This document shows, one piece after another, positions 5,609 through 25,354 of a stretch of 48,474 nucleotides of DNA; within the stretch, counting starts at the first letter, position 1, and each line of letters opens with the position of its first letter. Position numbers and translations under genes: made by a program. This DNA is from Draconibacterium orientale. Its GTDB lineage: Bacteria > Bacteroidota > Bacteroidia > Bacteroidales > JAADGE01. The stretch covers positions 1 through 48,474 of the forward strand of contig DYMH01000007.1 of the NCBI GenBank assembly GCA_020721645.1, read 5' to 3'. Under the pieces are notes generated by a model that was not told the origin of the DNA, ran no database searches, and was given only the letters and a program-made list of their open reading frames with translations.

Positions 5609-5623
5609 AGGTTCTGTTTTTTA

Positions 5624-5655
5624 CAAAAGTATGGAAATCGAATGTGTAAAGCAAA
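5624..5655 (-). promoter_or_regulatory. Promoter of the glycosyltransferase operon
   Basis: On the minus strand, TTTG at 5655-5652, exactly 20 bases, then TACTTTTG at 5631-5624. This is one of the best -33/-7 pairs in the window. The -33 element overlaps the edge of the terminator of the gene behind it. Confidence 0.65.
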
Positions 5656-5656
5656 A

Positions 5657-5680
5657 AAAAGGCTGCAAAAACAGCCTTTT
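5657..5680 (-). terminator. Terminator of the secreted-protein/lipoprotein operon
   Basis: A 9-bp stem AAAAGGCTG / CAGCCTTTT (5657-5665 with 5672-5680). Read on the minus strand it is followed by a run of T, just past the stop of the gene at 5699. Confidence 0.8.
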
Positions 5681-5698
5681 CGTTTAGATTGTGTCGTA

Positions 5699-6253: not shown

Positions 6254-6281
6254 AGTTTCTTTATATTTTGGTTTGTAAATA

Positions 6282-7181: not shown

Positions 7182-7326
7182 GCTCGTTTATTTTGGATTA
7201 ATAATGAAAATTATGAGGTAAAGTTAATATTTTTTTTTTATTTAAGAACATTTGCCTTTTTTTTTTCGCACGTACAAATTCATATTTTTTACATATTCTC
7301 ATTCTGAAAAAGTTGAAAACTCTTTT

Positions 7327-8139: not shown

Positions 8140-8329
8140 TATTGTTTGATATTTATGTTCTTTTTGTCATACGGAAGAGTTTTATTTTTGTTCCCACTTT
8201 TTTCTTTATCTGTAAATACTCCCTTTGTTCGATTATACGTATCGTGTTTTCCGATTCTCATGGGATACAACATTGAATAATGCAAAATTGCATTTCCCTT
8301 ATTGAATGAAAACTAAGTAACAAAAAAAA

Positions 8330-9931
8330 TTATTTTGTTGATATTTTCAAAACCTGCATAAAATCCGGGTCGTTTTTCAAAATGGCTCGATAAAATTCAT
8401 TTTCGTTCAAAATATTCCGAACAATATAAGCATAAAGCAATTCATTGATGCGATTTTGCGAAATTTTTAGTTCCGCTCCCGAAGGGTTGATTCCGTGTTT
8501 TCGGCAGTCGACAAGGAAGGCAGTTTCTATATTTTCTTTGATAAGATATTGCGTCAATGCTTCACCCGACTTAAAAGATGAAAGGTGTTTTCGATGCAGG
8601 TCGGAATAATTTAATGCAAAATCATATATTAAATTGCGGTGCATTAATTTCCTGTAATATTCCGTGTAAAAAGAGGTATCTATCGGAACAAAAATATCAG
8701 GCATAATGCCGCCGCCTCCAAAAACCGTTTTCCCGCCGGGTGTTTTAAATTTAAGCGAATCGGAAAAATGAGTACTGTCAGCCGAATTGAGTTCGCCATC
8801 GTGCGTGCGGTGCGAGAAGTATTCTTCGTAATTTTCCAAACCTTTGTCATACGGTTTTTGTATGCAGCGTCCGGTGGGCGTATAATATCTGGCAATGGTA
8901 AGGCGAATGCCGGAACCGTCCGGGAAAGCGGTCGATTCCTGAACCAACCCTTTCCCAAACGACCGTCGTCCGATAATCGTAGCACGGTCGTTATCCTGCA
9001 TGGCTCCGGCAACAATTTCACTTGCCGAGGCTGTCCAACTGTCGATAAGAATATCCAAAGGCAAGTCTTCGCACAACCCCTTATCGGTGGCAATATATTT
9101 GCGTTCCGGTGCATGTTGTCCGCGAGTGTAAACAATCATTTTGCCGGTTTTCAAAAATTCGTCCGAAATATCGACCGCTGCATCGAGATAGCCTCCGCCA
9201 TTTTGTCGTAAATCAAGAACTAAGGTCTTCATGCCTTGTTCTTTGAGACGAATTACTGCCCGGGTAAATTCATCGAATGTTGTTGCCGAAAATTTACTTA
9301 TTTTGATGTATCCAATATTCTTGTTCGTAATAAAAGAGGCATCGATACTGTTTATTGGAATTTTTTCACGAATAATTTCATAACGAATTAAATTTTTGAC
9401 ATTTCGGCGTTTGATGCCGATATTTACTTTCGTTCCGGTTTCTCCTTTGAGTTTATCAATGACTTGTCGATTGGATATTTTTACACCTGCAACAAGGGTG
9501 TCGTTGATTTTCACAATTCTGTCGCCTGCCAACACACCCATTTTTTCCGAAGGTCCGCCCGGAATAGTGGCAATAATGTAGATTGTATCGTTTTGAATAT
9601 TGAATTGCACTCCGATACCATCGAAATTACCTTTGAGCGGCTCGTTCATTTCCTCCATATCGCTTGCCGGAATGTAAACCGAATGTGGGTCGAGCATTTT
9701 CAATATTTCGGGGATTGCAAGCTCTTCGATGCTGTCGGTTGAAACCTTATCAACATATTTGTGTTGTATCAATTGAATAAGTGATGACAATTTATCCGGT
9801 TTCGAAACAAACATTTGCGACAATCCATCTTTACGCGGAATAAATTTATTGCCGATAAATATGCCAACAGCTAATACAATTCCTAAAACGATAGGCGTGT
9901 ATATTGCTCTTTTTGTATTTTGAATTTCCAT
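8330..9931 (-). CDS. S41-family C-terminal processing protease
   Basis: A tail-specific peptidase of 533 residues that trims or degrades exported proteins at the C-terminus. There is one membrane segment at about 8-27, so the enzyme is anchored with its body in the periplasm. A PDZ domain (about 95-180, with GIGVQF and VLAGDRIVKIND) is followed by the protease core: TLVLDLRQNGGGYLD, the catalytic Ser within ASASE (301-305) and the Lys in RRSFGKGLVQ (K327). About 130 residues follow, which are specific to this branch. It lies 120 bases downstream of the dCMP deaminase gene. That gap carries a 22-bp direct repeat. Confidence 0.93.
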   Translation of the reverse strand: MEIQNTKRAIYTPIVLGIVLAVGIFIGNKFIPRKDGLSQMFVSKPDKLSSLIQLIQHKYVDKVSTDSIEELAIPEILKMLDPHSVYIPASDMEEMNEPLKGNFDGIGVQFNIQNDTIYIIATIPGGPSEKMGVLAGDRIVKINDTLVAGVKISNRQVIDKLKGETGTKVNIGIKRRNVKNLIRYEIIREKIPINSIDASFITNKNIGYIKISKFSATTFDEFTRAVIRLKEQGMKTLVLDLRQNGGGYLDAAVDISDEFLKTGKMIVYTRGQHAPERKYIATDKGLCEDLPLDILIDSWTASASEIVAGAMQDNDRATIIGRRSFGKGLVQESTAFPDGSGIRLTIARYYTPTGRCIQKPYDKGLENYEEYFSHRTHDGELNSADSTHFSDSLKFKTPGGKTVFGGGGIMPDIFVPIDTSFYTEYYRKLMHRNLIYDFALNYSDLHRKHLSSFKSGEALTQYLIKENIETAFLVDCRKHGINPSGAELKISQNRINELLYAYIVRNILNENEFYRAILKNDPDFMQVLKISTK

Positions 9932-9937
9932 GAATTT

Positions 9938-9999
9938 GATGTGATGATTTATTGATGTGTTGATGAGATAATGAAATGATGTGATGATTTGTTGATGTG
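9938..9999. repeat. Two 22-bp direct repeats with 40-bp period
   Basis: The 22-bp unit beginning GATGTGATGATTT occurs at 9938-9959 and again at 9978-9999 with a single A/G difference. The whole 9935-10000 stretch is built from TGATG words. It lies immediately upstream of the S41 protease start on the minus strand, where promoter or operator sequence is expected. Confidence 0.7.
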
Positions 10000-10051
10000 G
10001 GGATTATGCTGATTTTCCGGGTTTTGTGTGCGATTTTGATGTTGCACAAAA

Positions 10052-10474
10052 TTATTCAATAAATTTCACAACATCAATCCCGGCACGTTTCAACAAATCA
10101 ATTCCTTCGGTAATGCGATATTCTTCGGTGTAAACAACGCGTTTAATTCCCGATTGAATGATGAGTTTCGAACATTCGATACAAGGAGATGTTGTAACGT
10201 ACAACGTAGCTCCATTGCTGTTGTTGTGCGATTTTGCAACTTTTGTTATTGCATTTGCCTCGGCATGAAGCACATAGTTTTTGGTTGTACCGTTTGTGTC
10301 TTCACAGATATTCTCAAAACCGGAAGGTGTTCCGTTGTAACCATCGGAAATTATCATTTTATCCTTTACAAGTAATGCTCCTACTTTGCGACGCTCGCAA
10401 TACGAATTTTCAGCCCAAATGGCTGCCATACGGAGATAACGATTGTCGAGAAGATGTTGTTTTTTATGAGACAT
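10052..10474 (-). CDS. dCMP deaminase (ComEB-like)
   Basis: A zinc cytidine/deoxycytidylate deaminase, 140 residues, which converts dCMP to dUMP and so feeds thymidylate synthesis. The zinc site is complete: H70-A-E72 in VLHAEANAI, and C98 and C101 in TSPCIECS. The NGTPSGFENICED substrate loop is typical of dCMP deaminases and distinguishes it from tRNA adenosine deaminases. It is transcribed towards the S41 protease. Confidence 0.92.
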   Translation of the reverse strand: MSHKKQHLLDNRYLRMAAIWAENSYCERRKVGALLVKDKMIISDGYNGTPSGFENICEDTNGTTKNYVLHAEANAITKVAKSHNNSNGATLYVTTSPCIECSKLIIQSGIKRVVYTEEYRITEGIDLLKRAGIDVVKFIE

Positions 10475-10559
10475 AAGACTCTGATTTGTTGTTGAAAAAC
10501 GAACACTTTGAAACTGTAACGAAATAAGTTATTCATTTTGTAATGATTTCGCTGAATCG

Positions 10560-10609
10560 TTCGGCTAAGGCTCTGCCTTAGCCGAATATTTTAAAAGAGG
10601 CTTTGCCTC
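10560..10609. repeat. Two adjacent hairpins of the GGC-TCT-GCC repeat family
   Basis: The first is a perfect 12-bp stem TTCGGCTAAGGC / GCCTTAGCCGAA with a TCT loop (10560-10586). The second is GAGGC / GCCTC with a TTT loop (10597-10609). On the minus strand the second is followed by TTTT and lies 71 bases after the dxs stop, so it may also terminate dxs. The same core recurs at 21863-21938 with different arms. Confidence 0.75.
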
Positions 10610-10680
10610 GAATAAATACAATCAAAACAAAGCAAATCTGTTTCTAAAAATAACTATGTTATTTCGTTACAAACCATAAA

Positions 10681-12576
10681 TTACGATATTAATGCTTTCA
10701 CCGTTTTATAAATACTCTCTTTATCATATCCGCAAATCGTGTATAATTCTTCCTGAGTGCCGTGTTCTATAAATTTATCGGGGATTCCGAGCCGAATTAT
10801 CTGTGCCGAATAGCCGTTTTCTGACATAAATTCGAGCACTGCACTGCCGAATCCGCCTTTAACAACGCCGTCTTCAACAGTTATTATTTTCGTAAAATTA
10901 CCGAAAATTTCGTGTAAAAGCTTTTCGTCCAAAGGTTTTACAAAACGCATATCGTAATGAGCAACACTTATATTTTCGGCTTTCCAGCGTGCTTGAAGTT
11001 CTTCAATTTTGTTTCCGACCGGTCCTATTGTCAATACAGCTAAATCTTTTCCATTGTGAATTATTTTCCCTGTTCCGACATGAATTTCCTCGAACGGAGT
11101 TTTCCAATCAAGCAACATACCGTTTCCTCTGGGGTATCGAATAGAAAAAGCCCCTTTCCCCGGTAGTTGTGCCGTGTACATTAAATTTCGCAGTTCCGAT
11201 TCATTCATTGGCGAAGCCACTGTGAGGTTTGGAACGATACGCATATAAGCAAGGTCGAAAGCTCCGTGATGTGTTGCACCGTCGTCGCCCACCAAACCGC
11301 CTCGGTCCAAACAGAAAACCACCGGTAACTTTTGCAATGCAACATCGTGAATCACTTGGTCGTAACCTCTTTGCATAAATGTAGAATAAACATTACAGAA
11401 AGGCATCATACCATCAGCAGCCAAACCTGCGGCAAAGGTAACGGCGTGTTGTTCGGCAATCCCGACATCGAAAGCTCGCTCAGGCTTTGCGTCCATCATC
11501 GGTTTCAACGAACAGCCGGAAGACATTGCGGGTGTGATGCCTACAATTTTCGGATTCATCTCAGCCAGTTCGATCATCGTTTGCCCGAAAACATCTTGAT
11601 AACGCGGCGGAATGGGTTTATCGGAATTTATTACAATTTTCTGCCCAGTTATTTTGTCGAACAAGCCGGGTGCATGCCATGCCGGCTGATTTCTTTCGGC
11701 TGCGGCAAATCCTTTTCCTTTGGTTGTAAGAATATGCAAGAGTTTGGGTCCGGGAATATTTTTAAGGTCTGCCAATAATTTAGTCATATACACCACATCG
11801 TGCCCATTGACGGGACCGAAATACCGAAAATTCATTGCTTCAAACAAATTACCTTGTCGCATGATAACGGATTTGATACCGTTTTCGATTTTCTGAATGA
11901 AAGCTCTTGTATTGGGTCCGATATGCCTTATTTTTCCCAAACTTTTCCATACCTCCTCTTTTACTTTATTATAGGTTTTAGACGTAGTAATGTCGAGTAG
12001 ATATTCGTTCAATGCTCCTGTATTAGGGTCAATCGACATATTGTTATCATTGAGAATAACAAGTACGTTTGCATTTAATGAGCCGGCATTGTTCAGGGCT
12101 TCGAAAGCCATTCCGCCTGTGAGAGCACCATCTCCGATAACGGCAATGGCATGATTTTTTTCGCCTTTTAAAGCAGAAGAAACTGCAATGCCAAGTGCTG
12201 CTGAGATTGAAGTTGATGAATGTCCAACACCAAAAGCATCGTGTTCGCTTTCAAAAATTGACGGAAAACCGGCAATACCGCCGAGTTTCCGGTTCGTATG
12301 AAATACTTCTCGACGACCGGTCAGTATTTTATGTGCATAGGCTTGATGACCTACGTCCCAAACAATTTTATCTTTCGGCGAATTGAAAATATAATGCAAG
12401 GCGACCGTAAGTTCTATCACGCCCAAGCTCGATGCGAAATGTCCCGGATTTTCCGATACAATATCAATAATAAATCGACGCAATTCGCTGCTCAAAGTAA
12501 TTAAATTTTCCTCTTTGAGCTTTTTTAAATCGTTCGGACTGTTTATTGTGTTGAGGAATTTGAATGATTCGCTCAT
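10681..12576 (-). CDS. dxs: 1-deoxy-D-xylulose-5-phosphate synthase
   Basis: Condenses pyruvate and glyceraldehyde 3-phosphate in the first step of the MEP isoprenoid pathway, with thiamine diphosphate as cofactor. It has the normal length of 631 residues. The cofactor-binding motif GDGALTGGMAFEALNNAG begins at 148 and ends with the NDNNMSID element. The active-site GHFASSLG is at 45-52. The second half has the transketolase-like YSTFMQRGYDQVIHDVALQ and DRGGLVGDDGATHHG. The gene is monocistronic, with a TATCTTTG box 22 bases upstream of the ATG. Confidence 0.97.
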   Translation of the reverse strand: MSESFKFLNTINSPNDLKKLKEENLITLSSELRRFIIDIVSENPGHFASSLGVIELTVALHYIFNSPKDKIVWDVGHQAYAHKILTGRREVFHTNRKLGGIAGFPSIFESEHDAFGVGHSSTSISAALGIAVSSALKGEKNHAIAVIGDGALTGGMAFEALNNAGSLNANVLVILNDNNMSIDPNTGALNEYLLDITTSKTYNKVKEEVWKSLGKIRHIGPNTRAFIQKIENGIKSVIMRQGNLFEAMNFRYFGPVNGHDVVYMTKLLADLKNIPGPKLLHILTTKGKGFAAAERNQPAWHAPGLFDKITGQKIVINSDKPIPPRYQDVFGQTMIELAEMNPKIVGITPAMSSGCSLKPMMDAKPERAFDVGIAEQHAVTFAAGLAADGMMPFCNVYSTFMQRGYDQVIHDVALQKLPVVFCLDRGGLVGDDGATHHGAFDLAYMRIVPNLTVASPMNESELRNLMYTAQLPGKGAFSIRYPRGNGMLLDWKTPFEEIHVGTGKIIHNGKDLAVLTIGPVGNKIEELQARWKAENISVAHYDMRFVKPLDEKLLHEIFGNFTKIITVEDGVVKGGFGSAVLEFMSENGYSAQIIRLGIPDKFIEHGTQEELYTICGYDKESIYKTVKALIS

Positions 12577-12861: not shown

Positions 12862-13563
12862 CTATCGAACGATTACCAATTTTCCGGATACAGGTTTTCT
12901 ATTCTCACAAACATAAGTGTAAAAATAGATACCTTCCGCAATATCTGACATTGCAAGAGTGTTATTTGTTTCACTCACTTTAAAATTTTTAACCCGAATA
13001 CCATTAATATCCGTTAAAATTAAACTTCCTTCCGAACCGTAACTTTTAATATGAATGAAATCAGAAGCCGGGTTGGGATAAATCCAATTCATTTCCGGGG
13101 TGAGTTGTGTTACATTTGTAAACGTATTGGCTAATCGAATACTTGCAGAATTACTTGGATTTGAAGTTTCAAAAAATTTTATTTGAATAACCGCGGCATC
13201 GGATATATTGGCGTAATTATTATAAACGACATCGAAAAAGTGCATAGGACTTGTTGTACCCGCTTCGAGATTGAAACCGGAACCGATACTCCCGGTAAGT
13301 GAGGGGGAATAACAATTTCCGTTGTAGCAAATCTGAAAAAAATTCTGTGGATCTGAGACCGGCACACTTAATTCAATGACCTCTACAGTAATATCAATGG
13401 CAGATGTTCCTGCATTGGAAATATTTATATAATATTCGGCATCGGGGGTCAGTAATCGACTTTGATTTGTAATATCTTCACCACCGACATCTGTTAAGCT
13501 AATTTGAGAATAGCTTTGTATTGAAATAATTGAAAAAAGGAGAATAAAGAAAATGTTTTTCAT
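12862..13563 (-). CDS. Small T9SS-secreted protein of unknown function
   Basis: 233 residues. There is a signal peptide (KNIFFILLFSIISIQSYSQ) and a central beta-rich domain of about 130 residues with the only two cysteines close together (CYNGNCYSP). The C-terminal type A sorting domain runs from about 158, with WIYPNPASDFIHIKSY, LTDINGIRVK and AEGIYFYTYVC. The central part resembles a small immunoglobulin-like fold with alternating strands, but I do not recognise a family. It is expressed from its own promoter and is divergent from the large Omp28-like gene at 13686. Confidence 0.82.
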   Translation of the reverse strand: MKNIFFILLFSIISIQSYSQISLTDVGGEDITNQSRLLTPDAEYYINISNAGTSAIDITVEVIELSVPVSDPQNFFQICYNGNCYSPSLTGSIGSGFNLEAGTTSPMHFFDVVYNNYANISDAAVIQIKFFETSNPSNSASIRLANTFTNVTQLTPEMNWIYPNPASDFIHIKSYGSEGSLILTDINGIRVKNFKVSETNNTLAMSDIAEGIYFYTYVCENRKPVSGKLVIVR

Positions 13564-13590
13564 AATTTATATTTATTTAAAATTTGTTCT

Positions 13591-13621
13591 CAAAATTACA
13601 CTTATTTAATCTTTTAGACAA
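13591..13621 (-). promoter_or_regulatory. Promoter of the small T9SS protein gene
   Basis: On the minus strand, TTG at 13621-13619, 20 bases, then TAATTTTG at 13598-13591, 28 bases before the ATG. Spacing and both boxes fit the phylum consensus. Confidence 0.55.
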
Positions 13622-13650
13622 GCCTCGTTACAATATTTTGCAAATTCCAT

Positions 13651-13658
13651 TATCTTTG
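13651..13658 (+). promoter_or_regulatory. -7 promoter box of the 679-residue Omp28-like gene
   Basis: TATCTTTG, 27 bases before the ATG at 13686. No good -33 match was found. The same TATCTTTG word stands before the sister gene at 15991. Confidence 0.5.
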
Positions 13659-13685
13659 TGAAATTATTAATAAAAAAAATTAAAA

Positions 13686-15725
13686 ATGAAAAAATTTTTT
13701 ACATTCTTCGTGCTTTTATTTGGAACATTGAGTTTTATGCAAGCACAAACATTTACAGATGACTTTGAAAGCTATACCGCAGGTGTGAAATTAGGAACCC
13801 AATCTCCCGATTGGAGAACATGGAGCGGTGCCGGCGGCGGTTCCGATGATGCCCTTGTTGTTACCACTGATAATCATACAACAGATGGAACAAAATCTGT
13901 CTATTTTTCTTCCACCTCTTCAAATGGCGGTCCGCAAGATGTGGTATTACCTTTCACAGCAACAACTGCCCTGACAACCGGACAATTTTCCTTTTCAACA
14001 TGGTTTAAAATCCCGGCAGGAAAAACAGCATATTTTAACTTCCAAGGCAATTCAACAATTGGAAATGCGTATGCCTTAGATTGCTTTATGGAGACAGACG
14101 GTACAATAAGCATTCAAAACAGCGGAACTGAAGTTGCAACTTCAACACACCCTTCCGGAACTTGGTTCAAATTAACCATCAATGCAAATTTTAATTCCAA
14201 TTCATGGGAATTGCTTATCGATGATGTTTCTCAGGCAACATGGTCAAACACAATCAATCAGGTTTGGGGTATTGATTATTACCCTGCAGACGCTTCGGCT
14301 TCTTTTTGGATTGATGATGTTTCTTATGATGTAACCCCGTATGTGTTGCCGGAACTCAATGCAGCAGGTAGTTTATTTGATATTTCAAACGGATTAACCG
14401 GTCAAACGCGCTATGCCGAAATCACCGTTCGCAATCTCGGAACGACAACGATTACTTCTTTCGATTTATCATTAACTCAAAACGGCGGAACTCCGATTCT
14501 CGAAAATGTTACCGGACAATCCGTTGCCTCCTTAGCCTCGGTTACAATTCCCATCGCAACTCCTTTTGTTTTAATCGAAGGAGCAAACGTTTTTGAAGCA
14601 ACAATAAGCAATGTAAACGAACTTGGTGCCGACGGCGATAATACCGATGACGTAGTTTCTAAAACAATAAATGCAATTACACCGGCTGTCGGCAAAAAAG
14701 TTGTTGCCGAAGAAGCAACAGGAACATGGTGCGGCTGGTGCCCCAGAGGTGCCGTGTATATGGATGCAATGGCTGCTAAATATGAAGATTATTTTATCGG
14801 AATTGCCGTTCATAATAACGACCCCATGGAGGTTACAGAATATGATGAGGCAATAGGAAATTTGATTGGTGGTTACCCAAGTGCATTGGTTGATCGTCTG
14901 CCGGATATCAATCCCAGTGCAATAGAAACCGATCTATTAACACGTATCGTTGAATCGCCCAAAGCAGTTGTCATCAATGGGGCAAATTACGATTCCGGAA
15001 CTCGTATTTTACAAGTTTCTGTTACAAGCACCATTCAATCGGACATCACCGGAAATTATACGATTGCCTGTGTTATTACCGAAGACGATGTAACTGGAAC
15101 AACATCAGCTTATAACCAAGCAAATTATTATTCAGGTGGAGATTATGGAGAAATGGGTGGATTTGAATTATTGGCAAACCCTGTTCCTGCTGCTCAAATG
15201 CACTACAATTTTGTAGCTCGCTTTATCAGCCCAAGTTTTGCAGGTGTAGATAACGCAACAGGTACAAGTGCTTCGACAGGCGATATTTTTACATATAATT
15301 TTTCTTTTACTCTGCCCGCAGGATACGATGAAACTCAAATTCATATTATCGGATTATTTATCGACCCAACAGGGAAAATTGACAATGCAGGTTCTGCAAC
15401 AATTACCGAAGCCGTTGAAAACGGATACATACCGGGTATCGGCGTTGGAGTTAATGAAATTGTTTCGGGTCCAGATGCTCAGATTTCTTTATTTCCAAAT
15501 CCCTCTGCCGATTTTTCTACAATTTCCTTAAATCTTACAAAATCATCTTCGGTTCTAGTTAAAATTGTTTCTATTGACGGGGCAATTGTTGCAAAAAAAG
15601 ATTACGGAGATTTGAATGGTTCGATGACTTTACCCGTTGATTTGTCGAAATTAAACTCAGGTATGTATTTTATAAATGTTACAATTGATGGCAATGCAAC
15701 AGCTCTGAAATTGATTAAAAAATAA
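13686..15725 (+). CDS. T9SS-secreted Omp28-like protein with thioredoxin-type CGWC motif
   Basis: 679 residues. In order: signal peptide (about 1-21, ending MQAQ); an N-terminal concanavalin/LamG-like jelly-roll domain (about 22-220, opening FTDDFESYTAG and closing WIDDVSYDV); a beta-sandwich segment (about 225-330); an Omp28-related thioredoxin-like domain with TGTWCGWCPRG (C349 and C352); and a type A sorting domain from about 595 (ISLFPNPSADFSTISLNL, LNSGMYFINVTIDG). The protein is therefore exported by T9SS and carries a redox-type CxxC at the surface. It has its own promoter box and terminator. A second, related gene follows at 15991. The redox role is inferred from the CxxC context alone. 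Confidence 0.88.
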   Translation: MKKFFTFFVLLFGTLSFMQAQTFTDDFESYTAGVKLGTQSPDWRTWSGAGGGSDDALVVTTDNHTTDGTKSVYFSSTSSNGGPQDVVLPFTATTALTTGQFSFSTWFKIPAGKTAYFNFQGNSTIGNAYALDCFMETDGTISIQNSGTEVATSTHPSGTWFKLTINANFNSNSWELLIDDVSQATWSNTINQVWGIDYYPADASASFWIDDVSYDVTPYVLPELNAAGSLFDISNGLTGQTRYAEITVRNLGTTTITSFDLSLTQNGGTPILENVTGQSVASLASVTIPIATPFVLIEGANVFEATISNVNELGADGDNTDDVVSKTINAITPAVGKKVVAEEATGTWCGWCPRGAVYMDAMAAKYEDYFIGIAVHNNDPMEVTEYDEAIGNLIGGYPSALVDRLPDINPSAIETDLLTRIVESPKAVVINGANYDSGTRILQVSVTSTIQSDITGNYTIACVITEDDVTGTTSAYNQANYYSGGDYGEMGGFELLANPVPAAQMHYNFVARFISPSFAGVDNATGTSASTGDIFTYNFSFTLPAGYDETQIHIIGLFIDPTGKIDNAGSATITEAVENGYIPGIGVGVNEIVSGPDAQISLFPNPSADFSTISLNLTKSSSVLVKIVSIDGAIVAKKDYGDLNGSMTLPVDLSKLNSGMYFINVTIDGNATALKLIKK

Positions 15726-15748
15726 AATCCTTCTTAAAATATTAAGTC

Positions 15749-15780
15749 AAAAGTCGGTAAATAAAATTGCCGACTTTTTC
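15749..15780 (+). terminator. Terminator after the 679-residue Omp28-like gene
   Basis: Stem AAAAGTCGGTAA / TTGCCGACTTTT (one G-T pair) with a six-base loop, followed by TTTC, 24 bases after the stop. Confidence 0.82.
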
Positions 15781-15808
15781 ATTTTAATATAATGAGTTCA
15801 GTTTAAAA

Positions 15809-15889
15809 AGTCGCATAGCGGATATTTATGCAAAAAAGTTTGTTATCAAAATACTGTAAAACAGTTAATTAGATAACCGCTTTGCGACT
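15809..15889. other. Nested 81-base inverted repeat
   Basis: The outer stem is AGTCGCA-T-AGCGG / CCGCT-T-TGCGACT (15809-15821 with 15877-15889, one T-T mismatch). Inside it lie GTTATC / GATAAC (15842-15847 with 15872-15877) and an inner ACTGT / ACAGT with an AAA loop (15853-15865). It sits between a terminator and the next gene's promoter, so it is not an ordinary terminator and has no T run. Confidence 0.6.
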
Positions 15890-15947
15890 CTGATTCCAAA
15901 ATTTGAGCTTTTTATACCGGACTCATATAATCAAATGCGATTTATAT

Positions 15948-15955
15948 TATCTTTG
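15948..15955 (+). promoter_or_regulatory. -7 promoter box of the 612-residue Omp28-like gene
   Basis: TATCTTTG, 35 bases before the ATG at 15991. It matches TAnnTTTG. No -33 element is clear. Confidence 0.45.
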
Positions 15956-15990
15956 TTTTATCATTTAAATTATAAAATAAACAAACTTTT

Positions 15991-17829
15991 ATGAAAAAAA
16001 TCTATCTTTTTTTTTCGTTATTAATCTTTGCTTACCTCGGGTTTGCACAAACCTTGATTGAAAGTTTCGATGGAACAACTTTCCCACCAACCGACTGGCA
16101 AAACATTCAAATTGCAGGAACCGGAAAATGGAACAGAGCAACAACCGGAATCGATCCCGATTGTTTACCCCACAGCGGTGCCGGTATGGCACGGTATAAC
16201 AGTTATAATTTTGCAGTTGGTGTCAATGCCATTTTAGTTTCACCTCCCTTAACTTTTACAGGTTCCGTTGCCCATACTTTGGATTTTTGGAAATATGCCG
16301 ATGCCGGTTGGAATATCTACGCCGACAGTATTGGTATCTATTACAATTCAACAGCATCATTAACCGGTGCAACATTCCTCGAAACCCTTCCGCGTTACAA
16401 TCCTGTCAGCGGGTGGTACGAACACAGCTACCTCCTTCCTGCTTCTCTCACAGGCACACAATACATTATTTTTAGAGGTTACAGTCAATATGGTAATAAT
16501 ATGTTTATCGATGATATCAATTTGATTGAAACTCCCGAACACGATGCTTCGGTTCAGTCTATTGATAATGAAATTTATTTAGAAAGTACAACTCCAACAA
16601 TACCTACTGCAACAATTCAAAATTTTTCATACGCCACCGAAACAAATATTGGTGTAACGTGTAAAATTTACAATTATGCCAATGAAGAAATCTATACAAA
16701 TACTCAGAATATAAGCGAATTAACAGCTTTTCAAACATCCGATGTTAATTTCGACTCATACACTTTGCCCAATGCGGAAGCAATTTATACTTTTAAAATT
16801 TATACTTCAATTACAAACGACCAAAATACCGCCAACGATACTATTGTAAAAACTGTCTATACATATACACACAACAAGCAAAGTGTTTTACTCGAAATCG
16901 GAACAGGAACATGGTGTACATATTGCCCCGGTGCAGCTATGGGAGCCGATGATTTGGTTACAAACGGACAAAATGTGGCAGTAGTCGAAAATCACAATGG
17001 AGATAATTACGACTATGACGCTTCAAATGCACGCAATTCTTTTTATAGCATTTCAAGTTACCCGACAGCAATATTCGACGGGAAATCGAAACTTGTAGGA
17101 GGCAGTCATTCTACAAGTCTGTATTCCTCCTATTTGCCAATGTATGAAAACCGATATGCGATGAAAACGGCTTTTGGGTTATCGGTAGATGGCACTTATT
17201 CGTTAAACACATACAATATCTCGGTTACAGCCGACAGATTCGGAGATACTCCTTTCGCCAACAGTAATTTGGTTGTTTATATGGCATTGACTCAATCAAA
17301 AATTACTGTTAATTGGCAAGGTCAAACACACTTAGAATTTGTAAGTCGCCTTATGGCTCCCAATGCAAACGGAACTGCGGTCGATTTATTAAACAACAAT
17401 CAAGTTGTCGTCCCTCTTTCGTTCGATTTTAATTCGGCTTGGGGCGGAAGTATTGCCAATCACGACTATGAAATCATCGTTTGGATACAGGATTTAAATA
17501 CCAAAGAGGTTGTTAATGCAATGAAAATGGATTTGACAGAAATCCTATCATCAGATGTTCAAACGAATGTCTCGAAAAGCAGTGTAAATGTCTATCCCAA
17601 TCCCTTCGGCAATCAATTAAATCTTTCGTTCAACTTAAATTCAAAACAAGATGTTCGTATCGAAATGGTCGATATTGTCGGAAAAACTGTGTATATCTCA
17701 AATAGAACCTTAAACTTCGGGACACAAACGATATCCATAGACGGCTTGGACTTAGAAAATGGCGTTTATTTCTTAAATATTACTGCGGGAAATGAAGTGA
17801 TAAGTCAAAAAGTAACGGTTTCAAAATAA
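15991..17829 (+). CDS. T9SS-secreted Omp28-like protein with CTYC motif and choice-of-anchor-type N-terminus
   Basis: 612 residues. The signal peptide (KIYLFFSLLIFAYLGFAQ) is followed by a choice-of-anchor J / cleaved-adhesin-like domain (about 20-185, opening ESFDGTTFPPTDWQNIQ and ending MFIDDINLIE). Then come a beta-rich linker and an Omp28-related thioredoxin-like domain with GTGTWCTYCPGAA (C309 and C312). The type A sorting domain begins at about 530 (VNVYPNPFGNQLNLSF, LENGVYFLNITAG). It shares domain order with the 679-residue protein upstream but has a different N-terminal module, which suggests duplication followed by module exchange. The gene is separated from the following thioredoxin gene by 148 bases. 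Confidence 0.88.
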   Translation: MKKIYLFFSLLIFAYLGFAQTLIESFDGTTFPPTDWQNIQIAGTGKWNRATTGIDPDCLPHSGAGMARYNSYNFAVGVNAILVSPPLTFTGSVAHTLDFWKYADAGWNIYADSIGIYYNSTASLTGATFLETLPRYNPVSGWYEHSYLLPASLTGTQYIIFRGYSQYGNNMFIDDINLIETPEHDASVQSIDNEIYLESTTPTIPTATIQNFSYATETNIGVTCKIYNYANEEIYTNTQNISELTAFQTSDVNFDSYTLPNAEAIYTFKIYTSITNDQNTANDTIVKTVYTYTHNKQSVLLEIGTGTWCTYCPGAAMGADDLVTNGQNVAVVENHNGDNYDYDASNARNSFYSISSYPTAIFDGKSKLVGGSHSTSLYSSYLPMYENRYAMKTAFGLSVDGTYSLNTYNISVTADRFGDTPFANSNLVVYMALTQSKITVNWQGQTHLEFVSRLMAPNANGTAVDLLNNNQVVVPLSFDFNSAWGGSIANHDYEIIVWIQDLNTKEVVNAMKMDLTEILSSDVQTNVSKSSVNVYPNPFGNQLNLSFNLNSKQDVRIEMVDIVGKTVYISNRTLNFGTQTISIDGLDLENGVYFLNITAGNEVISQKVTVSK

Positions 17830-17977
17830 TAAAATCAGTTAAAAGATGTTCTTTAATAAATGTCTTTATAAAACCAACAAAATGTTTTTTTGAGACATTT
17901 ATTTTTGTTCATATCAGATACAAACATTTTCAACACATAATTATTTCAAGTATCATAAAACTTCAATCTTTTTTGTT

Positions 17978-18484
17978 ATGAAAAAACCATTTGTTTTACT
18001 TACATTTCTGTTGGTTTACGGTACGATATTCTCCCAAACCGCCCAAATCCCTTCGGTAGATCTTAAAACTTTAACCGGCGATAAATTTAATACAGATTCG
18101 ATTAAAAATAACGGACCAATAGTTATCAGTTTTTGGGCAACGTGGTGTAAACCGTGCATTCAGGAACTCAATGCGGTAAGCGAAAATTTTACCGATTGGA
18201 ATGCCGAAACCGGTTTTAAAGTATTTGCAATCTCAATTGATGATGCCAAAAGTATGAGCCGTGTAGCACCATTTGTGAGCGGAAAAGGCTGGCAATTCGA
18301 GGTGCTTCTCGATGAAAACAGCGATTTTAAACGAGCCATGAATGTAGTAAATGTACCTCACACTTTTGTTTTAGACAAAACCGGTAAAATCGTTTGGCAG
18401 CACACATCGTATGCACCCGGCGACGAAGACGAATTGTATGAAATCATTAAAAAAGCATTTGCCGAACAATCGACCGAAGAATAA
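17978..18484 (+). CDS. TlpA/ResA-like periplasmic thioredoxin
   Basis: 168 residues. A signal peptide ending SQTAQ precedes a thioredoxin-fold domain of the AhpC/TSA-TlpA type. The active site is FWATWCKPCIQEL (C57 and C60), followed by the VFAISIDDAKS and cis-proline (VPHTFVLD) elements. This family reduces disulfides or thioesters in the periplasm, for example in cytochrome c assembly. The neighbours here are Omp28-like CxxC proteins and not cytochrome genes, so a role in keeping those partners reduced, or in folding them, is the better guess. It is followed at 34 bases by the outer-membrane gene, probably in one operon. Confidence 0.9.
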   Translation: MKKPFVLLTFLLVYGTIFSQTAQIPSVDLKTLTGDKFNTDSIKNNGPIVISFWATWCKPCIQELNAVSENFTDWNAETGFKVFAISIDDAKSMSRVAPFVSGKGWQFEVLLDENSDFKRAMNVVNVPHTFVLDKTGKIVWQHTSYAPGDEDELYEIIKKAFAEQSTEE

Positions 18485-18518
18485 TTTTTTCTTTTTTTTC
18501 AGATAAACACAATGAATT

Positions 18519-20168
18519 ATGAATTTTAAAATTACATTTCTCATACCATTTTTTTTCTTTTTATATTCTACCGTATTCGGTCAGGAAAATTCGGTAATCG
18601 GCGGGCAAATTCACGGCAATTTTCAAATTGATATGCAATCCTACACCTCCGATTCCATTATCGGTGCACCTAAAATTGATGAAAAAGTACTGGCAGCCGC
18701 ATACACCAACCTTTTTTATACTCGCGAAAAATTAGAAGTCGGCGTGCGATACGAAGCTTATTTGAATGCTCCGGCAGGATACGACAAACGATACGATGGG
18801 CAAGGCATTGCTTATCGCTACGCTTCGTATAAGGGCGAAAAAATAGAATTAACACTCGGGAATTTTTACGAACAATTCGGCAGCGGATTGATACTCAGAA
18901 CCTACGAAGAAAAAACACTTGGCATCGACAATGCTTTCGATGGTGCCGAAATGAAATTCAAACCACTAAACGGCATTGTTCTTACCGGATTAATCGGTAA
19001 ACAAAAACAGTATTTTTCTCTTGGAAGCGGTATTGTTCGCGGATTCGATGCAGATTTTGCTCTCAATGATATTTTTAAATTTCTATCCGTTAAAAAAACA
19101 AAAGTCTCATTAGGCGGTAGTTTTGTTAGCAAATATCAAGAAAACAACGATCCCATGTATAATTTCCCACTCAACGTAGCCGCTTATGCCGGTCGATTCA
19201 ACGTTTCGAGAAGTCGCTTTGTCCTTTCTGCCGAATATGCCTATAAAATCAACGACCCGTCCTACGATAATGCCTATATTTTTAAAGACGGCAATGCATT
19301 TTTTGCAAATCTCTCCTATTCGGGCAAAGGATTCGGCATCTTGCTAAGTGCTATCAGATTAGATAATATGAGTTTCCGCTCGGAGCGTTCGGCAATTCTC
19401 AATGATTTAAACATTAATTATCTGCCTGCAATAGCACAAGCACATACCTATGCTTTTGCTGCAATGTATCCCTTCTCATCTCAACCACAAGGACAAGCGG
19501 GTTTCAATTCCGAAATTTTCTATAAAATCCCTCAAAATTCTTGGCTTGGCGGAACTTATGGCACCGATATTTCGGTCAATTATTCCCAAGTAAACAGTAT
19601 TGAGAAAGTAAAAGTAATTGTCAATCCGGCTGATGAATATCCAAATCTCGATGGATATACTTCCAAATTATTTTCGGTAGGTAAAGAACTCTATTTTCGT
19701 GATTTTAATATCGAAATTCAAAAAAAAGTGAGCAAATCGTACAAATTTGCCCTCACATACATGCACGAAGATTATAACATGGAGGTAATTCAAGGGCATA
19801 ACGGCATGATATATTCCGAAATTGGAATTTTGGATATGACCTATAAATTCAGTTCCAAAAAATCGCTGCGTTTGGAAACCGAAATGCTGTTCACCGAACA
19901 AGATTTTGGAAACTGGGCAATGCTGCTTTTGGAATATTCGTACGCTCCTCATTGGTTTATTGCAGCGGGAGATCAATACAATTACGGCAACAGCCAAGAA
20001 GCCTATCGTACACACTATTATAATGTTGCCGCAGGATATTCCGATGGCGGCAGTCGTATTCAAATTGGATATGGCAAACAACGGGAAGGCGTTGTATGTG
20101 TTGGCGGAGTTTGTAGAAATGTCCCTGCTTCAAACGGCTTTACACTCTCAGTTTCATCAACTTTTTAA
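18519..20168 (+). CDS. Predicted outer-membrane protein, DUF6029-like
   Basis: 549 residues with a signal peptide ending VFGQ and then alternating aromatic beta strands through to a C-terminal LSVSSTF, the usual end of an outer-membrane barrel. A GGQIHGNFQIDMQSY opening and GNFYEQFGSGLILRTYEEKTLG are the most distinctive parts. I believe this corresponds to the DUF6029 family, which I recall from next to Omp28-type genes, but I have not been able to confirm it. It lies 34 bases after the TlpA-like gene and 96 bases before an Omp28 lipoprotein. A five-codon open frame at 18512 overlaps its start. Confidence 0.72.
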   Translation: MNFKITFLIPFFFFLYSTVFGQENSVIGGQIHGNFQIDMQSYTSDSIIGAPKIDEKVLAAAYTNLFYTREKLEVGVRYEAYLNAPAGYDKRYDGQGIAYRYASYKGEKIELTLGNFYEQFGSGLILRTYEEKTLGIDNAFDGAEMKFKPLNGIVLTGLIGKQKQYFSLGSGIVRGFDADFALNDIFKFLSVKKTKVSLGGSFVSKYQENNDPMYNFPLNVAAYAGRFNVSRSRFVLSAEYAYKINDPSYDNAYIFKDGNAFFANLSYSGKGFGILLSAIRLDNMSFRSERSAILNDLNINYLPAIAQAHTYAFAAMYPFSSQPQGQAGFNSEIFYKIPQNSWLGGTYGTDISVNYSQVNSIEKVKVIVNPADEYPNLDGYTSKLFSVGKELYFRDFNIEIQKKVSKSYKFALTYMHEDYNMEVIQGHNGMIYSEIGILDMTYKFSSKKSLRLETEMLFTEQDFGNWAMLLLEYSYAPHWFIAAGDQYNYGNSQEAYRTHYYNVAAGYSDGGSRIQIGYGKQREGVVCVGGVCRNVPASNGFTLSVSSTF

Positions 20169-20264
20169 AAGTATAAAGTTTAAAGTATCAAGATTGAAGA
20201 AAAACATTTCATTCATTTCATTATTTTCAAATTTCTACATTTCCAAATTTCCATTTCCGACAAA

Positions 20265-21110
20265 ATGAAAAAAATATTTTACACATTATTAATAATCTCA
20301 CTCGCATTAATTTTTTCGTGCGATGAAGTAAAAAATCCCTTGAAACCGGCAAGTAATCAATGCGGCGATGATACACAGCCGGTTCCCATTCGGAAAATTC
20401 TTGTTGAGGATTTTACGGGACATACCTGTCCGAATTGCCCGCCGGCTGCCGAACAAATGGCTTTTCTTAAACAAAAATACTGCGATTACATTGTTCCCGT
20501 TGCACTCCATGTAAGTGTTTTTGCGACACCCAACAGTACGTATCCCGAAGATTTTAGAACGGCTGAGGGAACGGAAATAGACCAATATTTTGGAGTTTCT
20601 GCTGCCGGATTGCCGCACGGCTTAGTAAACCGAATGCCGTACAACGAAAACCCAATAATTGTTTATGCCGAATGGGCAGCGGCTATTGAAGCCCTTCTGC
20701 TTTCTCCGCCCGAAATGTATCTGACAATCAATACCTCATTCAATCCGGTGGATAGCTTGGTCAGTATTTCTGTCAGAACGGATATTTTAAAAAATGTTCC
20801 TGACAATTTAAGCCTTTCGGTTTATTTAACCCAAGACAGCATTATTGCACCCCAAAAAGATATTCGTATGAACCCGGTATTAATCCCAAATTTTGTTCAC
20901 CAACATGTTTTACGAGCAGTGATTAACGGAACATGGGGCGAACAAATTACCGATGCACCAAGTCTTTTTGGGAATATGATAGAAAAAACCTATTCCATAA
21001 AAATTAAGCCCGAATGGAATGTGTCGCACTGCGAAATTGTAGCTTTTGTTTTCAGAAGCGATTCGAGAGACGTGATTCAGGCTGAAAGTAAACCGATTGT
21101 ATCCGATTGA
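20265..21110 (+). CDS. Omp28-related lipoprotein with CPNC motif
   Basis: 281 residues. The lipobox is ALIFSC, with the acylated Cys followed by DEVKN. The thioredoxin-like part of the Omp28 family begins RKILVEDFTGHTCPNCPPAAEQM (C55 and C58). Downstream are VSVFATPNSTYPEDFRT and GVSAAGLPHGLVNRM, typical of this group. It has no sorting domain, unlike the two secreted relatives, so it should stay in the envelope. It closes the TlpA / outer-membrane protein / Omp28 operon and is followed directly by a strong terminator. Confidence 0.88.
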   Translation: MKKIFYTLLIISLALIFSCDEVKNPLKPASNQCGDDTQPVPIRKILVEDFTGHTCPNCPPAAEQMAFLKQKYCDYIVPVALHVSVFATPNSTYPEDFRTAEGTEIDQYFGVSAAGLPHGLVNRMPYNENPIIVYAEWAAAIEALLLSPPEMYLTINTSFNPVDSLVSISVRTDILKNVPDNLSLSVYLTQDSIIAPQKDIRMNPVLIPNFVHQHVLRAVINGTWGEQITDAPSLFGNMIEKTYSIKIKPEWNVSHCEIVAFVFRSDSRDVIQAESKPIVSD

Positions 21111-21130: not shown

Positions 21131-21166
21131 AAAAAGGTCGATTGTTAAATCAATCGACCTTTTTTG
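21131..21166 (+). terminator. Terminator after the Omp28 lipoprotein gene
   Basis: A perfect 14-bp stem AAAAAGGTCGATTG / CAATCGACCTTTTT with loop TTAAAT, starting 21 bases after the stop, followed by further T. Confidence 0.9.
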
Positions 21167-21208: not shown

Positions 21209-21709
21209 TTATTTTTTAGGGAAATAGATATTGGGCGAAGCATCGCCTTCTTTTTGGAGGACAAGTTTTTCGGAAGTCAGCTCTACGATGGTATATTTTA
21301 CGGGAGCTTTTTCGGCACCGGCTTTCTCGTCCCACTCTTTCATAATAATAGCTGTTTCATCGGGGCTCATTTCCCAATATCCTAAAACAGAACTCGACAA
21401 CAAACCTTCGCCTATTGTTCGGGAGTACGATAGCTTTGAAGCATCTTTTGAATCAACAGCAAAAACAACCGTTTCGGCTAAAAAATCTGCAAATTTTTTA
21501 ACATCGCCTTTTAATTCGATATTAGCACTGATTCCGGTGGTATCTTTCAAATTATCGGTTCCGCCTTGCAGTGTGGCGTTAGGGTCCAATTTCCAAGTAA
21601 TGGAAGTCAGCAATTTTCCTTTGTCAGACAGCTTGGCTTCTTTACCGCCACCGCATGATACAGCAAGTAATAGTGTTGCTGCAATACTAAAAGTTAAAAG
21701 TTTTTTCAT
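21209..21709 (-). CDS. Small lipoprotein of unknown function
   Basis: 166 residues. The signal sequence ends in LLAVSC, with GGGKEAK after the Cys. The mature part looks like a single beta-sandwich or lipocalin-like domain: alternating strands, with SITWKLDPN at the start, VLGYWEMSPDETAIIMKEWD in the middle and EKLVLQKEGDASPNIYFPKK at the end. That pattern resembles lipocalin-like proteins of the DUF4923/DUF4488 kind, but I cannot assign one. It has no partner gene: the + strand operon converges from the left and the tyrS region diverges to the right. Confidence 0.75.
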   Translation of the reverse strand: MKKLLTFSIAATLLLAVSCGGGKEAKLSDKGKLLTSITWKLDPNATLQGGTDNLKDTTGISANIELKGDVKKFADFLAETVVFAVDSKDASKLSYSRTIGEGLLSSSVLGYWEMSPDETAIIMKEWDEKAGAEKAPVKYTIVELTSEKLVLQKEGDASPNIYFPKK

Positions 21710-23651: not shown

Positions 23652-24311
23652 GTGGAACTAAATAACGTTATTTTATACAGAATCACTCACATAGAGAATA
23701 TTCCACATATTCTTCAATACGGTATTACACATAAAGACTCACTTAATAAAAATCCTGATTATAAAAATATTGGAGACTTAAGCCTGATTGATACACGGAA
23801 TAAGAAAAAAGTAAACATTGATAATGGCGAACTTGACACGAAAAATGGCATAGTTTCAATTGCTTTAGGAGATATTATTCCTTTCTATTTTGGTGTGAGA
23901 ATGCCAATGCTTTATGTAACTCAAAATGGAGGAAATTTTGTTGAAAAAGCTACTGCTCCTATTGATATTATTTATTTAGCTTGTTCTGTGAGTAAGATAA
24001 TTTCTTCCAAACTCAATTTTTACTTTTCAGATGGACATGCGACAGATATACTTACTTCATTTTACGATAAATTAAGAATTAATGACCTTGTTAATATTAT
24101 TGATTGGGAAGCCGTAAAATCTTCATATTGGGGAGGATCTGAAAACTTAAATATTAAAAGGAAAAAGCAAGCCGAATTTTTAATTTCCAGTGATTTAATG
24201 CCCGAACTTATAATAGGTTTTGGGTGTTACAACGAAAAAGCTAAAGCAAAATTAATATCATTCGGAGTAGTTGAAGATAAAATTAAGATTATTCCTCAAG
24301 CGTACTATTAA
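23652..24311 (+). CDS. darT: DarT-like ssDNA thymidine ADP-ribosyltransferase toxin
   Basis: 219 residues with a GTG start. DarT attaches ADP-ribose from NAD to thymidine in single-stranded DNA and blocks replication. Visible markers are R10 in YRITHIENIPHIL, the R49 region (LSLIDTRNKK), DIIPFYF, H129 in FSDGHATD and the catalytic Glu E175 in KRKKQAEFLI. The arrangement matches DarT proteins of the former DUF4433 family from memory. The darG gene begins 11 bases downstream. Both genes are strongly AT-rich between the two normal-composition housekeeping genes tyrS and lepA, which suggests horizontal transfer. Since the toxin would be lethal alone, the intact active-site residues imply the antitoxin is functional too. 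Confidence 0.9.
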   Translation: MELNNVILYRITHIENIPHILQYGITHKDSLNKNPDYKNIGDLSLIDTRNKKKVNIDNGELDTKNGIVSIALGDIIPFYFGVRMPMLYVTQNGGNFVEKATAPIDIIYLACSVSKIISSKLNFYFSDGHATDILTSFYDKLRINDLVNIIDWEAVKSSYWGGSENLNIKRKKQAEFLISSDLMPELIIGFGCYNEKAKAKLISFGVVEDKIKIIPQAYY

Positions 24312-24322
24312 AACTACAGATT

Positions 24323-25354
24323 ATGATAAAATATGTTACAGGAGATATTTTAGAAAGTAAAGCAGCTGCATTAATCAACACCGTTAATACTGTTGGTGTT
24401 ATGGGAAAAGGTATTGCACTGCAATTTAAAAAGGCATATCATAATAATTATAAAGCTTATGCAGATGCATGTAAAAGAAATGAAATTAAAATAGGTAAGT
24501 TGTTTATAATTAAAGATTCAAATCTTAGTTCGGAAGAAAAATACATTATTAATTTTCCGACAAAGAAAGATTGGCGAAAACCTTCTGAATATATTTTCAT
24601 TGAGTCAGGTTTAGATGACTTAATTCGTGTTTTAAAAGCATATAAAATAAAAAGTATAGCGATACCCCCATTAGGTGCCGGAAATGGCGGATTGGAATGG
24701 GAAAAGGTAAAAAAAATTATTGAACATAAACTGAATAATCTTGATGTTGAAATAATTGTTTTTGAACCAACTCAACATATAAAAGAACAATTAAAAAAAG
24801 AAAGAGTGAAATTAACAGATGCAAGGGCATTATTACTCTATGTTTTATATGATTTAGTAAAGAACGGAGAGTATGTTTCAGAATTCTCCGGTGAGAAAGT
24901 CTGTTATTTCTTGCAAAGATTTGGAGCCAAAAAGTATTTTAATCTTGATTTCAAACCAAACTTTTACGGCCCCTATTCCGGTAAAGTTCGATTTGTATTA
25001 AATGTGTTAAATGGTAGTTATATCATGGGATATAGCGATATGAATAAAAAGCCGTTCGAGCCTCTTACTTTAGTGTCAGATGGTTATAAAGAGGTAAAAG
25101 CTCATGTTGAAAGTAATTCTGAATTATATAGTATTGCTAATAAAACAATTGATTTTTTATCCGGTTTTTATTCGGATTTTGCACTTGAACTATTATCATC
25201 AATTGATTTTATTACAACAAATCTGAACTCATTTGAAAAAGACTTAATAAGTAATCAATTAGAAAATTGGAGCGACAGAAAGAGAAGTATGTTTTCAAAT
25301 CCAAAATATATCGATATTTCTGTTAGACAATTACAACACGCTGATTTTGCATAA
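24323..25354 (+). CDS. darG: DarG-like macrodomain antitoxin
   Basis: 343 residues. The N-terminal macrodomain (about 1-155) opens MIKYVTGDILESKAAALINTVN and has the ADP-ribose-binding loop VNTVGVMGKGIALQFK, the catalytic-Lys region NFPTKKDW (K81/K82) and PPLGAGNGGL. It removes the ADP-ribose that DarT adds to DNA. The C-terminal half (about 160-343, from KLTDARALLLYVLYDL) matches the second DarG domain, which also binds and blocks DarT directly. It is co-transcribed with darT, 11 bases after its stop. The 177 bases that follow hold no gene. Confidence 0.9.
   Translation: MIKYVTGDILESKAAALINTVNTVGVMGKGIALQFKKAYHNNYKAYADACKRNEIKIGKLFIIKDSNLSSEEKYIINFPTKKDWRKPSEYIFIESGLDDLIRVLKAYKIKSIAIPPLGAGNGGLEWEKVKKIIEHKLNNLDVEIIVFEPTQHIKEQLKKERVKLTDARALLLYVLYDLVKNGEYVSEFSGEKVCYFLQRFGAKKYFNLDFKPNFYGPYSGKVRFVLNVLNGSYIMGYSDMNKKPFEPLTLVSDGYKEVKAHVESNSELYSIANKTIDFLSGFYSDFALELLSSIDFITTNLNSFEKDLISNQLENWSDRKRSMFSNPKYIDISVRQLQHADFA

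Follow-up and report, generated by a model that had tools for sequence, protein, structure and literature searches.

Thiol relays of the DsbD/CcdA type place a membrane protein with a cysteine pair between thioredoxin domains on two sides. DsbD and CcdA are helical inner-membrane proteins, and we know of no route for thiol electrons across the outer membrane. A candidate for such a route is the gene cassette tlpA-DUF6029-omp28, analyzed here in a 48,474-nucleotide stretch of Draconibacterium orientale (contig DYMH01000007.1 of assembly GCA_020721645.1, positions 1–48,474; hereafter the window), where it is part of a six-gene cluster at 12862–21110. Like the relays, it encodes a membrane protein with a cysteine pair, but this is a predicted β-barrel, with thioredoxin-fold proteins as its neighbours for either side of the membrane, in genomes that, within the sample analyzed, all possess SprA (42/42), a protein of the type IX secretion system. 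That this widely conserved cassette is an outer-membrane thiol-disulfide module is well supported. We further read it as an operon whose module relays electrons to the surface, an explanation to which, as a whole, we assign a probability of about one half; the step across the outer membrane would be its new and unproven part. The literature searched contained no description of the cassette among the matches listed, with most subscription papers lying outside the search.

We regard the cassette as a variant of extracellular thioredoxin systems, and as a new kind if the relay is real. In the CcdA-Etrx1/Etrx2-MsrAB2 pathway of Streptococcus pneumoniae, surface lipoproteins of the TlpA/ResA kind are likewise fed from inside and pass electrons to a surface target; as outlined in the accessible part of that report, however, the pathway has one membrane, crossed by CcdA, and no barrel, whereas the cassette has a second membrane to cross (PMC3914529). 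HBP35 of Porphyromonas gingivalis (5y1a) has the two-domain fold of the Omp28 lipoprotein, an active CxxC and a type IX secretion system (T9SS) tail as in the large proteins of our cluster; its identity to the Omp28 lipoprotein is only 16%, and the available sections of its description name neither a barrel partner nor an electron donor (PMC2907840). It reduces insulin in vitro through two cysteines, and one form is located on the cell surface; its authors called the physiological role of the thioredoxin domain unknown (PMC2907840). Omp28 of P. gingivalis (2r2c, titled as a domain of Omp28) belongs to the same family as our lipoprotein and matched its model with Z 10.7 over 114 residues, but the match spans model residues 95–281, with the CxxC outside. 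The P. gingivalis protein has been named an adhesin or receptor, not a redox protein.

In the window, the cassette begins with a TlpA/ResA-like thioredoxin of 168 residues (17978–18484, forward strand), with a signal peptide recognized by eye and C57 and C60 as its sole cysteines (WCKPC). AhpC-TSA and Redoxin matched with 73.2 and 67.6 bits (AhpC-TSA cut-off 26) and the WCxxC is present, hence the assignment as TlpA/ResA-like; the ResA model NF002854 scored 71 bits, below its cut-off of 170. The DUF6029 barrel follows on the same strand (549 residues, 18519–20168; PF19494, 606.3 bits at a cut-off of 27, covering 8–538 of 538). Its sole cysteines, C527 and C532, lie in the sequence CVGGVC, and codons 527–532 of this CxxGxC hairpin occupy 20097–20114, computed as 18519 + 3×526. 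The third gene, also on the forward strand, encodes an Omp28 lipoprotein of 281 residues (20265–21110) with lipobox Cys19, CPNC (C55, C58) and P117, and exceeds the curated cut-offs of both PF11551 (94.4 bits, cut-off 34.9) and NF033782 (158.9 bits, cut-off 150). The original prediction, made from this DNA alone, had interpreted the region as a cell-surface redox module of five genes, in which it listed CGWC, CTYC, CKPC and CPNC motifs, a TlpA-like thioredoxin and a DUF6029-like barrel. All five genes and their motifs were found where it had placed them and both family assignments hold, i.e., its observation of the cluster is confirmed, and its interpretation is partly supported. It had not mentioned the CxxGxC pair of the barrel, the replacement of Omp28 by redoxins or a small T9SS-sorted cysteine-pair protein, all described below.

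To follow the cassette across Bacteroidota we used a phylum sample of 148 genomes, 42 of which have DUF6029; p-values are not corrected for descent. The barrel region was taken from 38 of the 41 DUF6029 genomes other than that of the window (G054, G065 and G127 were left out), and these 38 loci plus the window give 39 family-drawn barrels. The 119 loci overall include 80 named loci, the top-ranking 80 out of at least 590, which were seeded by patterns including the barrel motif C[VT]GG[IV]CR. The cysteine pair and adjacent residues are hence biased in the named loci, and our conclusions rest on the 39 family-drawn barrels. Genes were called with a simple open reading frame (ORF) caller, with tblastn used where tlpA was unseen. 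Minus-strand entries in alignment A1 start at the second codon and extend through the stop, L077 and L127 are shifted by one codon in A4, and the alignment of barrels from named loci (A2) omits L145, a near-copy of L144.

The tlpA-DUF6029-omp28 order is conserved far beyond the Draconibacterium orientale strain, contrary to what would have refuted the original prediction; Hymenobacter (L100, L114) is among the named bacteria with the cassette. A tlpA gene lay directly upstream of DUF6029 in 32 of 38 family-drawn loci (29 on the same strand, 3 on the opposite strand). Two more loci (L046, L049) have it two genes upstream, with an Omp28-like gene between, and tblastn recovered it adjoining the barrel in L033 and L039, for a total of 36/38; a count of 35/38 for tlpA within three genes wrongly includes L038, where the upstream "tlpA" is a 94-residue fragment on the opposite strand. 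Omp28 was found directly downstream in 20/38 loci, one gene further in L059, and also in L034, where it is masked by an antisense ORF and was placed from genome-match coordinates. Omp28-like genes occur in the cluster upstream of the barrel in L046, L048, L049 and L050. Among the named loci, tlpA was next upstream in 69/80; tblastn recovered it in a further 5, and in L074 it stands at the second position upstream; omp28 was next downstream in 74/80, while L119 and L147 end at a contig edge and L123 has a thioredoxin-like gene instead. Same-strand gaps are short, with medians of 27 bases between tlpA and DUF6029 (n = 99) and 13 bases between DUF6029 and omp28 (n = 95).

Co-occurrence in whole genomes agrees with this order. 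Omp28 was present in 31/148 genomes, 29 of them also with DUF6029 (Fisher p 1.8e-18), and the pairing is therefore more than chance; the two Omp28 genomes without DUF6029 (G086, G120) score under the family cut-off. Conversely, 13 DUF6029 genomes lack a PF11551 match, twelve of which are of family f22, and the thirteenth (G123) has an Omp28-like gene according to a profile of our own (L058). SprA, found in every DUF6029 genome, was present in 75 of the 106 others (p 9e-6). Tag-free BLASTP clustering of all 1179 ORFs lying up to five genes from the barrel gave a group of thioredoxins, Omp28 and small proteins in 117/119 loci, presumably joined in part via their common T9SS tails. The next eight neighbour families were far rarer, i.e., 20, 17, 15, 13, 12, 12, 11 and 10 of 119 loci; they comprise, with one example named for each, a small barrel, phosphomannose isomerase, a flavoprotein, malic enzyme, SIR2, QueG, RuvA and RuvB, and look like local neighbours rather than partners. 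The small outer-membrane barrel (OMP_b-brl_2; e.g., L036:11695–12315, forward strand) occupies the second position downstream of DUF6029 in its 20/119 loci.

In 9/38 family-drawn loci, all of family f22, a redoxin pair stands downstream of DUF6029. In all nine loci examined, tlpA and DUF6029 are followed first by a redoxin with a lipobox (by eye) and next by one bearing a T9SS tail (profile match), and these redoxins carry CPHC or CTHC. Judged by motifs and tails, this is the layout of a lipoprotein CxxC and a T9SS-sorted CxxC rebuilt from another thioredoxin family. Because the same layout accompanies the barrel with either family, what the barrel needs appears to be thiol chemistry and not Omp28 as such, and we consider the f22 replacement the strongest argument for this.

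The barrel itself was modelled with a predicted local distance difference test score (pLDDT) of 92.6 and a predicted template modelling score (pTM) of 0.86, and 24 strands were counted from grouped DSSP elements. Odd loops of the model have a mean length of 14.6 residues, even turns of 4.3; by the usual rule, the longer odd loops would be extracellular. CxxGxC forms the last odd hairpin (strands 524–528 and 531–535, with breaks at 522–523 and 536–537). The motif was present in 39/39 family-drawn barrels, directly in 38 and in a shifted frame in L042, and no other cysteine is conserved; it was also present in 80/80 named loci, a set that is pattern-seeded and biased in this respect. In L042 the barrel gene (9214–10931, forward strand) breaks into two frames towards its end, with both pieces matching the family, which may be an assembly error. 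Within the motif, the cysteines and G530 are kept throughout all 39 barrels and R533 outside f22, while the 14 closest family-drawn barrels share R513, G524, G529, G530, R533, P536, A537 and G540 as invariant residues. An extracellular loop would not ordinarily be so conserved.

With its cysteine pair invariant in 39/39 cases, the barrel shares this feature with the membrane proteins of DsbD/CcdA relays. In Pfam it matches only DUF6029, which gives no sign of kinship with the DsbD transmembrane proteins. Among solved folds, the ushers FimD (Z 18.5, 4.3 Å, 375 residues) and PapC (Z 17.7) come closest, with many porins not far behind; at 10% identity, however, this is a likeness of fold only. 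The residue after the second cysteine is arginine in 30/30 barrels from genomes with Omp28 or Omp28-like genes and tyrosine in 9/9 with redoxins (for L042 taken from the shifted tail), a split that is confounded with descent as the nine redoxin loci are one clade. If the barrel is a relay, arginine or tyrosine at this site would mark the partner interface. The original suggestion that electrons pass perhaps through the barrel gains support from the invariant pair in the last hairpin; the transfer as such stays at the level of a proposal.

For the Omp28 lipoprotein, the predicted structure (pLDDT 94) consists of a thioredoxin-like half and a β-sandwich. A strand (45–51) leads to the CxxC (55–58) and a helix (58–75), followed by a strand (76–82), a helix (100–109), P117, two strands (118–121, 131–133) and a helix (134–145). 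The predicted order, β-α-β-α-β-β-α, is hence that of a thioredoxin fold, in which the CxxC opens the first helix and a proline precedes the third strand, i.e., not the non-thioredoxin fold that would have spoken against the original prediction. C19, C55, C58, P117 and Q197 are invariant in 67/67 aligned Omp28 lipoproteins (alignment A3, in which 66 named loci were used out of the 74 where Omp28 directly follows the barrel; eight with over-long starts or near-copies were omitted). The best structural match was HBP35 (Z 25.2, 2.4 Å, 220 residues). Agrobacterium 2axo followed with Z 19.3, and Omp28 also has a weak DUF1223 match (E 0.006). Omp28, HBP35 and DUF1223 may form one superfamily of exported two-domain thioredoxin proteins.

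Barrel-adjoining Omp28 proteins carry a tether after the lipid-bearing cysteine, typically C-D-K-I-(D/E)-x-P-Y, with the proline in 60/67 aligned sequences; a loose C-to-P pattern was found in 82/95 Omp28 proteins, a few of these by chance. The tether appears to differ from the surface export signals given in the accessible text of the literature (C-X-K-(D/E)2-X and S-D-D-D-D type), and in the window C-D-E-V-K has two acids in an order unlike these signals (PMC5080379). By eye, the barrel-adjoining Omp28 proteins of L051–L053, L055 and L060 have no lipoprotein cysteine, so the lipid anchor is not universal. CxxC was present in 141/143 Omp28-like ORFs, the exceptions being one 718-residue protein and one fragment.

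Upstream of tlpA, two large T9SS-sorted proteins are encoded on the forward strand, each with an Omp28-like core: protein 1 of 679 residues (13686–15725) with WCGWC (C349, C352), and protein 2 of 612 residues (15991–17829) with WCTYC (C309, C312). Their predicted T9SS secretion is supported by PF18962 tails of 46.8 and 55.5 bits, respectively (cut-off 27). Of the three Omp28-like proteins originally named, the lipoprotein is a full family member, whereas the large two remained under the curated cut-offs, protein 1 with 28.9 of the 34.9 bits needed for PF11551 and protein 2 with no PF11551 match and 67.6 bits, below 200, for the Omp28-selenoprotein model NF045500. As their profile scores indicate, they are remote Omp28 relatives, which the term "Omp28-like" describes correctly and "Omp28" would overstate. 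As originally described, the two differ in their N-terminal modules. A 191-column local alignment had made related modules look possible, but composition-adjusted BLASTP between the two proteins gave nothing better than E 0.33, and the candidate was rejected. On the reverse strand, a small T9SS-sorted protein of 233 residues (12862–13563; PF18962 42 bits) has the cysteine pair C79-x4-C84 (ICYNGNCYSP).

Such surface proteins recur at the other loci. Among 42 Omp28-like proteins of at least 450 residues in the 119 loci, 41 have a T9SS tail. Relatives of the small protein gave 57 matches in 54/119 loci, 53 of them with C-x3/4-C by regular expression and all 57 with a T9SS tail by a profile of our own; large Omp28-like proteins account for two of the matches. 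The idea that the small protein often repeats the C-x-G-G-x-C of the barrel was dropped, as this applied to only 10/57 matches. We propose the large Omp28-like T9SS proteins and the small cysteine-pair protein as candidate electron acceptors or clients.

From these elements the following relay could be assembled. Inner-membrane DsbD would reduce the periplasmic TlpA-like protein, which may exchange with the CxxGxC hairpin of the barrel, either via the wide lumen or via a small thiol. The hairpin, which may sit at the outer rim or fold into the lumen, would in turn exchange with the CxxC of a barrel-docked Omp28, and Omp28 would hand electrons to the T9SS-exported Omp28-like CxxC proteins and to the small cysteine-pair protein. 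The basis lies in sequence (gene order, families, T9SS tails, the barrel cysteine pair and the redoxin replacement), with barrel and thioredoxin folds predicted; the passage of electrons across the outer membrane, its direction and its targets we infer. The net flow is probably reducing, from DsbD over TlpA, barrel and Omp28 to the T9SS proteins, by analogy with known relays. The Draconibacterium orientale genome contains DsbD and a search of it did not find VKOR, which makes a reducing flow the best guess. VKOR as the oxidant of the module was dropped, being present in 6/42 DUF6029 genomes and in 26/106 others (p 0.19).

Tentatively, and with more doubt than confidence, we suggest that DUF6029 is an outer-membrane counterpart of DsbD, whose CxxGxC hairpin would take electrons from a thioredoxin of the periplasm, pass them to those on the surface and thereby maintain a powered, NADPH-linked thiol pool outside. 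If this is true, Gram-negative cells could have a powered thiol pool beyond their outer membrane. The cassette in any case offers leads to the function of DUF6029 and of the N-terminal half of Omp28.

Several points weigh against an electron relay to the surface. Loop lengths in the model put the cysteine hairpin on the extracellular side, and with an extracellular hairpin TlpA would need to act through the pore. DsbD was found in 148/148 genomes and is hence uninformative as a marker; since DsbD is universal in the sample and VKOR shows no significant relation to DUF6029, the reducing direction comes mainly from analogy. A structural disulfide would equally give invariant cysteines, and the redox activity of a module known from sequences and predicted models is putative. 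The cassette is also incomplete in places. In the family-drawn set, tblastn gave no tlpA in L038 and L054, and 3/38 loci (L041, L045, L047) have no Omp28 in the fetched stretch, with Omp28 present elsewhere in the genome. In the named set, tblastn gave no tlpA in L109, L115, L126 and L137 (L086 lies at a contig edge), and L075, L109 and L115 have downstream room, yet no Omp28 within three genes. At L045, a 1634-residue T9SS-sorted protein with PKD and Ig-like domains (4185–9089, reverse strand) takes the usual place of Omp28 downstream of DUF6029.

The main rival to the relay takes the barrel as a client, the last hairpin of which needs a disulfide, or its reduction or isomerization, for folding or gating, with TlpA and Omp28 as dedicated catalysts on either side. 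LptD is an example of a barrel that needs oxidoreductases. The C-x4-C flanking the tight turn of a two-stranded hairpin suits a structural cross-strand disulfide, and the joint inheritance of DUF6029 and Omp28 (29/31) would be expected as well. A client barrel therefore explains the invariant cysteines, but it does not explain the T9SS partners: a single disulfide needs neither additional surface CxxC proteins with T9SS tails (41/42) nor a T9SS-sorted redoxin. VKOR is an oxidant known in Bacteroidota, but it is not enriched with DUF6029. We hence regard a client barrel as somewhat unlikely.

Alternatively, the barrel could be a transporter of a ligand such as heme, a metal or a thiol compound, which the CxxC proteins bind, reduce or release. 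The barrel does resemble many pores, and HBP35, the closest solved relative of Omp28, binds hemin, its deletion mutant growing poorly without hemin (PMC2907840). An excerpt of a 2026 preprint moreover proposes HBP35-like surface thioredoxins in iron uptake (PMC13404670). However, according to the available part of the HBP35 study, hemin binding persists in a double cysteine mutant and in a fragment beginning at residue 135, so that heme and thiol sites are distinct (PMC2907840). The eight next commonest neighbour families, judged by one example each, include no metal or heme uptake gene, and we consider transport of a ligand improbable.

More improbable still, the barrel might be a dedicated exporter or docking ring by which the Omp28 lipoprotein reaches the surface, with Omp28 alone responsible for the redox chemistry. 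A wide barrel with the FimD translocation pore as best match (Z 18.5) and the conserved tether after the lipid cysteine (proline in 60/67) are compatible with such a role, which leaves the invariant barrel cysteines and the adjoining tlpA unexplained. Moreover, the f22 lipoproteins are, by eye, without an Omp28-type tether, and the five loci whose barrel-adjoining Omp28 has, by eye, no lipoprotein cysteine (L051–L053, L055, L060) also speak against it. That DUF6029 is a polysaccharide-export porin has been suggested from an HHpred resemblance between Wzi-type barrels and the family, in the one paper naming it in the literature searched (PMC9603273); this reading, in which the redox neighbours would be incidental, is hardly credible. 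Phosphomannose isomerase, a sugar-precursor enzyme, is near the barrel in 17/119 loci, but the thioredoxin/Omp28/small-protein group is there in 117/119 with any other family in at most 20, and the eight commonest other neighbours, by one example each, include no export gene.

With regard to transcription, we searched for TAnnTTTG boxes, which we take to be the Bacteroidota promoter motif. Seven occur on the forward strand of 8.6 kb, among them one at 13651–13658, 35 bases 5' of large gene 1, one at 15948–15955, 43 bases 5' of large gene 2, and one at 17900–17907, 78 bases 5' of tlpA; the two intervals on either side of DUF6029, towards tlpA and towards omp28, contain none. Terminator-like hairpins were found at 10 sites compared with 7.3 expected in shuffled sequences. 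One with 12 pairs (15749–15778, forward strand) stands 3' of large gene 1, and one with 14 pairs (21131–21164) closes tlpA-DUF6029-omp28; the latter is listed on the reverse strand, with a T run following on the forward strand too. Sigma-70 promoters were disregarded, with 25 found and 29.5 expected in shuffles. Overall, tlpA-DUF6029-omp28 looks like a single operon, with the large genes transcribed separately.

A small lipoprotein-like gene (21209–21709, reverse strand) is convergent with omp28; its product has no Pfam match and a weak NCBIfam lipoprotein match far under the cut-off. Further downstream, a DarT/DarG toxin-antitoxin pair (23652–25354, forward strand), consisting of a DNA ADP-ribosyltransferase and a macro-domain antitoxin, exceeds the respective NCBIfam cut-offs with 153.7 (150) and 385.9 (250) bits.

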